Source: Microvirga rosea (lineage in GTDB: Bacteria > Pseudomonadota > Alphaproteobacteria > Rhizobiales > Beijerinckiaceae). Taken from it: 64,000 bases of DNA. The DNA is taken from contig NZ_JAJDOP010000001.1 in NCBI RefSeq assembly GCF_020595095.1, positions 558,001 through 622,000 on the forward strand, read 5' to 3'. Each line of letters begins with the position of its first letter. Within the stretch, counting starts at the first letter, position 1. Shown here in pieces: positions 13,407 to 14,648 of the stretch. A model generated the notes under the pieces. The model saw only the letters and a program-made list of their open reading frames with translations, was not told the DNA's origin and searched no databases. The position numbers and the translations under genes are program-made.

Positions 13407-13820
13407 TCAGTCGATGGCCTCGATGCCTTGTTCCTTCAGGCGTTCGAGATTGTCCTTCATCTGCTTCAGCCGCTCGGGCGAATGGCCTTCCCAGTCCGTG
13501 ACCTCGCCGATGATCCGGAGCGGCTCGCGGGAGCGGTAGGATTGTGTCGGATTGCCCGGGAATTTCTGGTCGGTCAGATTGGGGTCGTCGACGATCGGCC
13601 CGGTCGGCTCGACGATGTAGATCCTCTCCGGCTCGTCCCCGGCCGCCAGTTCGGCGCCCCAGATCGCTGCGTCCAGCGTGCCGGTGAGATAAACCCAGGA
13701 CGCCTTTTTCCGTGCCCCGTAATTGGACCTGTAGCCTGCCGCGATCAGGTCTCCCGGCTTCAGGTCGGCCCGCGTGCCATGGTAAAACCGCCGCGGGATC
13801 GTTCTCTCGTTGGATGGCAT
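13407..13820 (-). CDS. arr: rifampin ADP-ribosyltransferase (Arr family)
   Basis: A 137-residue protein matching Arr enzymes, which use NAD+ to ADP-ribosylate the C23 hydroxyl of rifamycins. Family landmarks run in order: FYHGTRADL (conserved His, residue 14), WVYLTGTLDAAIWGAELAAG (conserved Tyr), IYIVEPTGPIVDDPNLTDQKFPGNPTQSYRS (conserved Asp and the diagnostic PGNPTQSYR) and DWEGHSPE. Length matches known Arr proteins. It is a lone leftward gene beside the tandem repeat array, which suits lateral acquisition. Whether it confers resistance in this host depends on expression, which is unknown. Confidence 0.93.
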   Translation of the reverse strand: MPSNERTIPRRFYHGTRADLKPGDLIAAGYRSNYGARKKASWVYLTGTLDAAIWGAELAAGDEPERIYIVEPTGPIVDDPNLTDQKFPGNPTQSYRSREPLRIIGEVTDWEGHSPERLKQMKDNLERLKEQGIEAID

Positions 13821-14162
13821 GAGTTTGCTGCTCCCTCTCGTGCTGCGAATCGAGGGCAGCGTTCATAGGACAGGACCCCGGGCTTGCCGCAATCCCCGGG
13901 ATCCGGTAGACAATCATGGTGGCCGACGCTGATGCCCTTCGCGCAACTCTCGAAGCGGACGGAACGGAACACCGGCCTCAGCGACGCATCCAACTCCTGA
14001 CATATCATTCCTGCGGGCAGGAATCCGCGAAAGTCAGCGGCTGAAAGCCACTGCCCTCTTCCCGAACATCGTTGTGGTGATGGGTCCCGCCTGGGCAGAT
14101 GACGGTGGGGAGCGGGCGCTCGACCCATTGACCCCAGGCTAGCTTTGCGTGTTACCTCGTCA
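13821..14162. other. intergenic region without a supported gene
   Basis: No convincing coding sequence was found on either strand. One perfect palindrome stands out: ATTCCTGC (14007-14014) and GCAGGAAT (14017-14024), separated by two bases. The arr promoter must lie at the left edge. A minus-strand open frame crossing the region has no good ribosome site or family features. Confidence 0.6.
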
Positions 14163-14347
14163 CCGAATCCGGGCGCACCCGGTTTCGGGGTGTGAGAACC
14201 TCACCAAGGCGGTCGGCATCGACCGCAACGATGCCTCCCTTGCCTTATGGCCGGGAGGTGTTGGCGCATGTCCAAGGCGCAAGCCTAAAGGCCAGCGCAG
14301 CCGTCCTTGGCGGTTTCTCAACTCCCGGCCACCAGCGGCGCTGGTGG
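14163..14347 (+). ncRNA. candidate structured RNA or leader of unknown family
   Basis: An unusually dense set of stems. (a) CCGAATCCGGG (14163-14173) with CCCGGTTTCGG (14178-14188), one mismatch. (b) GTGAG (14192-14196) with CTCAC (14200-14204). (c) GGTCG (14211-14215) with CGACC (14220-14224). (d) A long closing stem TGGCCGGGAG (14248-14257) with CTCCCGGCCA (14322-14331). It encloses CCAAGG (14272-14277) with CCTTGG (14305-14310), then GCGC with GCGC (14277-14280, 14295-14298), sharing base 14277 as an alternative, and GCC-TAAA-GGC (14283-14292). (e) CCACCAGC (14329-14336) with GCTGGTGG (14340-14347), which shares bases with stem d, so d and e compete. A small ORF with its own Shine-Dalgarno begins at 14373. 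Strand is inferred from that ORF. I cannot name the family. Confidence 0.4.
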
Positions 14348-14372
14348 TCGCTTCACCTTGGGGGAGTTGCCG

Positions 14373-14648
14373 ATGGAGCCGCCGTACAGCGTCTGGGCCG
14401 ATCTCTTGAACAAGTTTCACACCGCTCCGACGGCGATCCAGGCGCTCTGGCTTGTGGTCGGGTGGCTCACGGTGCGGCATGTGGCGTCCGTGATCGGCCA
14501 TGTGCTTCTGGAGGTCGTGCGGGTGATCGATCGGCGCGGCGAACGGCGTCGGGCGATATCGGCGCCCTCAGGACCGGAACAGGCGCTTATAAAGCGCGGC
14601 GACGTCCGCGCCCTGGCTCAGGCGGATCCGGCCCGCCTGCCGCCTTGA
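14373..14648 (+). CDS. small single-span membrane protein, function unknown
   Basis: A 91-residue protein. The N-terminal SVWADLLNKFHTAP is followed by one hydrophobic segment at about residues 20-48 (IQALWLVVGWLTVRHVASVIGHVLL), then a basic, disordered tail. ATG 14373 is preferred because TTGGGGGAG stands 8 bases upstream. The frame is open from 14307, but that upstream part overlaps the hairpin region. Similar short proteins with an N-terminal KFH-tail-anchor look occur in Hyphomicrobiales as hypothetical proteins. It is directly downstream of the candidate structured leader and convergent with a histidine kinase. Confidence 0.55.
   Translation: MEPPYSVWADLLNKFHTAPTAIQALWLVVGWLTVRHVASVIGHVLLEVVRVIDRRGERRRAISAPSGPEQALIKRGDVRALAQADPARLPP

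Follow-up and report, generated by a model that had tools for sequence, protein, structure and literature searches.

A promoter-like block, a structured leader and a small gene

In the window, by which we mean the whole 64,000-nucleotide stretch of Microvirga rosea DNA that was analysed, positions 14128-14369 hold a promoter-like block and a structured leader of about 190 nucleotides, followed on the same strand by a gene for a small protein (Table 1). The original prediction had seen here a cluster of hairpins arranged like a two-state leader, proposed as an unassigned structured RNA or switch, and after it a small ORF with its own Shine-Dalgarno (SD) sequence. The ORF and its SD sequence are indeed there, with the ATG at 14373, and the 10-bp closing stem is present with all ten of its pairs Watson-Crick. 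The 8-bp hairpin placed at 14329-14347 is a genuine hairpin, although its length had been given too short: it pairs 14327-14336 with 14340-14349 in ten pairs, one of them G-U, and it does overlap the closing stem, by five bases rather than three. A proposed UAAA-capped hairpin gave way to the conserved pairing GGC-GCAA-GCC at 14276-14285, which UAAA adjoins as a conserved loop. The promoter-like block, the long-range pairs A1:A' and B1:B' and the competing stem P_D had all been missed, and the anatomy of a C4-type antisense RNA had not been suspected.

Table 1. Features of the leader locus, in window positions
Feature	Position	Strand	Details
Promoter-like block	14128-14157	+	-35 TTGACC 14128-14133, 17-nt spacer, -10-like GTTACCT 14151-14157
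5' hairpin of leader	14163-14188	+	91.8% of cells paired (60 copies); both-side change in 3/11 pairs
A1 strand (a1-like)	14193-14198	+	partner A' 14315-14320
B1 strand (b1-like), hypervariable	14204-14209	+	partner B' 14305-14310
Hairpin P_C	14209-14226	+	competes with GGCAUC:GAUGCC pairing
Strand 1	14229-14244	+	forms P_D with strand 2; excludes P_E
Strand 2	14248-14263	+	arm of P_D, or 5' arm (14248-14257) of closing stem P_E; starts TGG
Hairpin P_F	14259-14297	+	arms 14259-14265:14291-14297; loop AUGUCCA..UAAAG; inner hairpin 14276-14285
Hairpin P_G	14301-14313	+	loop carries B' (14305-14310), b' equivalent
A' strand (a' equivalent)	14315-14320	+	between P_G and 3' arm of P_E
Strand 3, 3' arm of P_E	14322-14331	+	followed by ACCA in 58/60 genus copies
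Terminal hairpin T (strand 3:4)	14327-14349	+	excludes P_E
SD region	14360-14369	+	SD GGGGGAG 14360-14366; GGGAGTTG 14362-14369 complementary to CAACTCCC 14319-14326
Small protein, 91 aa	14373-14648	+	one hydrophobic segment; no Pfam, NCBIfam or PADLOC match

On the plus strand the segment 14150-14375 has a folding energy of -116.4 kcal/mol, whereas shuffled sequences average -92.7 ± 5.1 (z -4.6; 0 of 200 shuffles as good), and on the minus strand z is -2.9, with 1 of 200 shuffles as good. By DNA search, 22 of 48 Microvirga genomes carry the element with 1-8 matches each, four strong copies being found in the window's own genome; its distribution in the genus is multicopy and irregular. We located 70 genus copies and aligned the 61 that span the core; removal of one with a run of N (L074) left 60. 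A covariance model, R1, trained on 32 genus copies only, matched over its full length in 42 of the 297 order genomes and 30 of the 240 class genomes, both counts including the own genome. Searches of plasmid and phage sequences with the window RNA returned partial matches only, and following these up led to viral contigs with the core pattern of the window. Beyond the genus we worked with an alignment, A7, of 55 matches in 53 loci, from 58 loci; it leaves out L183 and L184, which are close to L182, and L233-L235. We regard the cluster of hairpins as a genuine regulatory RNA that is present in multiple copies.

Sequence similarity among genus copies starts at the promoter-like block, and 5' of it the flanks differ among copies within the 60 bases compared. 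TTGACC combined with GTTATCT or GTTACCT occurs in 41 of the 66 copies examined. A less strict pattern, which we defined after inspecting the alignment, is present in 58 of the 66, and 49 of these 58 have a spacer of 17. A generic sigma-70 scan did not flag the block in the window copy.

The partner family of the window protein was compared with several collections, giving weak matches at most in Pfam, weak matches only in PHROG and none in PADLOC; for NCBIfam the search covered three family members. A Kyte-Doolittle mean of 1.6 is passed by 22 of the 23 members, the window member standing at 1.52, and by its sequence the latter is probably a one-helix protein. Searching the genome contigs with the window ORF as a protein found no relatives. 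A profile built from the genus partners was compared with the 47 ORFs located after the RNA in loci beyond the genus. It matched six (L178-L181, L190 and L244) with E values from 5.6e-14 to 0.0025, where the best shuffled control stood at 0.93. One of the six is in Rhizobium skierniewicense, and the majority of the 47 ORFs encode other proteins. Within the genus, too, the RNA has other partners, namely an 82-aa protein and XRE regulators. At one locus (L084:1709-2080 onward) the leader is separated from a copy of the small membrane-protein gene by the gene of an XRE regulator, which looks as though it had been inserted into a two-gene unit.

Covarying and mutually exclusive helices

Homologous leaders were gathered and searched for compensatory changes, as the original prediction had proposed, and such changes were found within the genus and outside it. 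Across the 60 genus copies, 94.5% of the cells of the nested structure are paired, and 308 cells are changed on both sides, against 93 ± 10 in shuffled alignments. On the 55 matches outside the genus the R1 structure gave 749 such cells against 207 ± 14, a count that leans toward this structure since A7 was fitted to it.

Among the helices, the long-range ones stand out most. The hypervariable strands at 14193-14209 covary with their partners at 14305-14320 in the 60 copies: the A1:A' helix is 89.6% paired with both-side change in 4 of 8 pairs, and the B1:B' helix 89.8% paired with both-side change in 7 of 7, the B element taking 36 distinct sequences among the 60 copies. The A1:A' helix also covaries in the 55 matches outside the genus. 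Moreover, in 49 of 60 copies A1B1 and the A'B' of the same copy share exact matches that add up to at least 12 nt, compared with 1.9% of swapped combinations. Sharing of a B code inside genomes (1 of 92 pairs) was not significantly low (P 0.23). A second A1B1 sought in the 1.5-kb flanks reached 14 nt in 8 of 60 copies, which we read as GC-rich chance and set aside. As for the hairpins enclosed by the closing stem, P_F is 99.5% paired in the genus with both-side change in 4 of 7 pairs, and three pairs of P_G are kept in 60 of 60 copies without compensatory change.

The closing stem P_E is absent from model R1. Outside the genus, even so, 96.0% of its cells are paired and 36 are changed on both sides; shuffles gave 10.4 ± 3.0, and 0 of 500 reached the observed count. 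Within the genus any compensation is confined to 2 of its 10 pairs, and one pair fails to form in 15 of the 60, the base concerned covarying instead with the inner hairpin of P_D (pair 94:104 of alignment A1; 25 both-side changes). P_D itself is 99.4% paired in the genus with one compensatory cell, which is not above shuffles in the 60 copies, and compensatory changes in it are present in matches outside the genus. Likewise, T is 99.2% paired in the genus, with both-side change in 2 of 10 pairs there and in 11 of 11 outside. Thus P_D (strands 1:2), T (3:4) and P_E (2:3) all appear to be selected even though P_E excludes the other two, which is the layout of a two-state leader. The earlier view of the locus is therefore borne out by many genomes, by strong covariation and by the covariation outside the genus of each exclusive helix. 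None of the outcomes named beforehand as speaking against it (no covariation among homologues, no conservation outside the strain, proof of a mobile-repeat or coding remnant) was found as stated, although the element occurs in multiple copies and probably descends from a phage.

In the free fold of the window leader, at -114.0 kcal/mol, P_D and T form without the A1B1:A'B' pairing. Forcing that pairing gives -109.5, a cost of about 4.5 kcal/mol, and forcing P_E gives -104.8, a cost of about 9, in a fold model that does not cover pseudoknots. T is not followed by a U-tract, and a terminator scan of the window was negative, so that control at the ribosome site appears likelier than termination. 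U-rich tails after T occur in a minority of relatives, and among 79 loci of the Rfam family RF02221, which is treated below, 10 have at least 7 U within the 14 nt of the tail. A strict split of the relatives into a terminator type and an a2b2 type failed (Fisher P 0.25), although loci with T have a stronger P_D (Mann-Whitney P 4e-5).

Kinship with sRNA-Xcc1 and phage C4 RNAs

An Rfam search of the window reached the gathering score of no family. Below threshold, the sRNA-Xcc1 family (RF02221) was matched at the same place in 8 of 10 genus loci scanned, with 29.2 bits at the window locus and a maximum of 36.3; none of the ten reached its 53-bit cut-off. The 3' half of the leader aligns over model positions 1-87 and the three-stem layout is common to both, whereas the scores of the genus copies (29-36 bits) stay below the 53-bit cut-off. 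In addition, the Rfam consensus starts with GG and strand 2 of the window with TGG. In Rfam, and by RACE in Xanthomonas (PMC2996969), sRNA-Xcc1 is an RNA of about 88 nt (88 nt by RACE), without an A1B1 leader.

Matches to RF02221 at E up to 0.001 were obtained in 37 of 289 genomes of the class and 58 of 398 of the phylum (5 and 39 over the cut-off), against 0 of 14 control genomes. Of 80 RF02221 loci, 79 or 78 have enough flank and 60 a good ORF call. RNAduplex over long segments was noisy on these loci (the own partner came out best in 2 of 79 loci in one test, and in another in 19 of 78 on the upstream side and in 5 of 78 on the downstream side) and was replaced by exact matches. With these, upstream strands of the A1B1 type match A'B' over at least 12 nt in total in 63 of 79 loci against 3.6% when swapped, so that Rfam represents a larger unit by its 3' half. 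A'B' also matches the start of the next gene (-28 to +6) over at least 7 nt in 26 of the 60 loci when paired with their own gene, compared with 96 of 3540 swapped combinations, and within 70 nt downstream in 35 of 79 against 77 of 943.

We then asked what these RNAs precede. Among 59 following proteins (56 from RF02221 loci and 3 from the genus; E up to 0.001) there were 6 Bro-N, 6 Rha, 2 KilA-N, 1 P22_AR_N, 2 SymE, 2 DNA methylase and 5 HTH_3 matches, the Rha match at L088 lying below Pfam's own cut-off. The recurrent partners of RF02221-family loci are antirepressors (Bro-N, Rha, KilA-N, P22_AR_N) and SymE; named examples are ant of phage Aaphi23, Ant of Pmp3, a plasmid BRO gene and a plasmid Rha gene. 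At L118 and L138 the RNA precedes a SymE-like gene whose start region matches A'B', a match that would explain the pairing of sRNA-Xcc1 with symE in Xanthomonas, where the RNA is reported to precede symE in the integron cassette of widest distribution (PMC12444791). A 1.4-Mb alphaproteobacterial genome (G141; L091 and L148-L159) holds 13 RF02221 matches, several of them before similar small proteins of the HYDIK type.

The combination of an upstream a1b1, an RNA with complementary a'b' and a regulated gene is that of the phage C4 RNAs. C4 is described as a three-stem structure with RNase P acting at GGW and b' over the ribosome site (PMC5320573), and is covered in a review (PMC12197685); a table lists a c4 antisense RNA and a c4-a1b1 motif (Weinberg 2010, PMC2864571). 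The record of phage P1 has the order a1, b1, c4, a2, b2, icd, and the window has a like order of promoter, a1, b1, RNA and small gene. P1 c4 folds with a closing stem and two hairpins, b' in the second loop and a' before the 3' arm of the closing stem, as here. In the genus, then, an upstream a1b1 complementary to a'b' of the RNA is present, and so are the closing stem, the two hairpins, b' in loop 2 and a' before the 3' arm. We regard the C4-type anatomy of the genus leader, read from sequence and predicted pairing, as well supported. The P1 C4 RNA starts with GG; in the genus, GG stands at the 5' foot of the closing stem in 60 of 60 copies. RCC after the closing stem is found in 37 of 80 other loci and is hence not general outside the genus. 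The GG foot together with ACCA would be only compatible with release by RNase P.

Reading by eye showed a1b1, a'b' and a2b2 in phages ctOK67, Aaphi23 and Pmp3, and likewise in five viral contigs with the window's core pattern, three of which are identical over the stretch read. The genus copies differ from P1 and P7 c4 (RF01695) at this point: a start-region a2b2 was found in 1 of the 60 copies, compared with 111 of 3540 swapped combinations, and at a length of at least 10 nt in 7 of 60 against 16.4% swapped, so that a2b2 is not above chance. A scan of 10 genus loci that admitted E values up to 5 matched neither RF01695 (C4) nor RF02944 (c4-2), another C4-named Rfam family (clan CL00128), and RF02944 gave one weak match elsewhere, in L127. 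A further difference is that the genus element is chromosomal and multicopy and does not precede an antirepressor; no antirepressor operon follows the window RNA, its partner being the small protein.

The competing fold may be older than the genus leader. In the P1 c4 precursor a strand-1:2 pairing is possible too (-23.9 kcal/mol), and a strand-3:4 hairpin with a2 in its loop is seen by eye (L238:256-420), hence the alternative fold may be ancestral. One source names sRNA-Xcc1 and C4 as separate families and reports seven sRNA-Xcc1 homologues in one Xylella genome (PMC12189769), and in the literature searched, as far as its listings and passages show, we found no link between the two.

A candidate chromosomal switch and its alternatives

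On this evidence we consider it likely that the leader is a domesticated chromosomal form of a phage C4-type antisense RNA, of the sRNA-Xcc1 branch, serving as leader of the small membrane-protein gene. This would give the little-understood sRNA-Xcc1 family a concrete model, that of a C4-type antisense regulator whose upstream half falls outside the Rfam model. It also suggests that phage immunity RNA serves in Proteobacteria as a control cassette that is both portable and widespread, one branch of which was turned into chromosomal leader switches.

How such a leader would act can be outlined more tentatively. It is probable, judging from the exclusive helices, that it forms an RNA switch ahead of the small membrane-protein gene. 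The nascent leader would adopt either P_E, giving a compact C4-like trefoil, or P_D together with T. The trefoil would perhaps be trimmed at the GG of its 5' foot and possibly released. P_D and T would be the off state with the SD covered, as P_D leaves strand 3 free to hold T and the SD. A'B', acting in cis or in trans from the released trefoil, would recognise the A1B1 address carried by the leader it belongs to, which would make each copy privately addressed; this pairing would bias the choice between P_E and P_D plus T and may turn the gene either on or off. That the copies form a family of privately addressed, mutually insulated chromosomal switches, in which a leader's own A1B1 is read by its own A'B' and decides between the two states, is a possibility that we put forward with reserve. 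The base-pair codes make the model testable by mutate-and-compensate reporters.

Several other readings share part of this evidence. The leader could work by itself as an attenuator or riboswitch, with the internal loop of P_F as the sensor of a ligand or a protein and the likeness to C4 reflecting ancestry only. Attenuators in which 1:2 and 3:4 pairings compete with a 2:3 pairing are a classical layout, and the four strands compete in the same way here, with the difference that an added address pair crosses the 2:3 stem. Such a sensor would fit the many invariant columns that fall within the P_F loop (AUGUCCA / UAAAG), as well as the diversity of the genes that follow the RNA outside the genus; however, a shared ligand sensor needs no hypervariable A1B1:A'B' helix, and no common pathway is seen among those genes, which leaves this reading doubtful in our judgement. 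A metabolite riboswitch in particular was dropped as the leading idea because we saw no pathway that links the genes after the RNA, and in agreement with the earlier failure to recognise a standard riboswitch core, nothing pointing to one was found.

We give a similarly low weight to a type I-like toxin-antitoxin unit in which the RNA restrains a small membrane toxin. The single hydrophobic segment of the protein, the multicopy nature of the element, the occurrence of the SymE toxin family after 2 of the 59 RNAs scanned and the control by P1 c4 of icd, annotated in the P1 record as an inhibitor of cell division, all speak for it, while the database results given above for the partner family (weak Pfam and PHROG matches only, none in PADLOC) and the 82-aa protein and XRE regulators among the genus partners speak against it.

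Alternatively, the RNA could be a trans-acting small RNA with its true targets elsewhere and the small ORF a bystander. The 88-nt sRNA-Xcc1 of Xanthomonas would be a precedent (PMC2996969), and the genus copies do lack a2b2 at their own gene; yet A1B1 remains matched in cis, and of the 47 ORFs located after the RNA in loci beyond the genus 6 encode a related protein, though most encode others, and we think this an improbable account of the locus. That the hairpins are the remnant of a mobile repeat or a recombination site without regulatory function, as their multicopy, irregular distribution and three copies broken at one site might suggest, is highly improbable given the compensatory change across divergent copies and the conserved promoter-like block.

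The domesticated C4-type leader is thus the reading that we prefer, and a few observations on the surroundings of its copies may be added. The three broken copies, all in Microvirga pudoricolor (L073 end, L077 end and L085 start), break at the equivalent of window position 14323 and continue past the shared breakpoint into a common sequence at the contig ends, as if one insertion sequence targeted the 3' arm of the closing stem. At L078:40-2888 a second partial copy, consisting of the 3' end and the ORF, lies about 2.5 kb downstream of an RNA copy, with other sequence in between. By eye, the flanks of several genus copies (e.g. L053 and L059) adjoin palindromic repeats of the GGCCGGNC type. 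In the window itself, the neighbouring gene at 13407-13820 on the minus strand matches rifampin ADP-ribosyltransferase (Arr-ms, Pfam PF12120).
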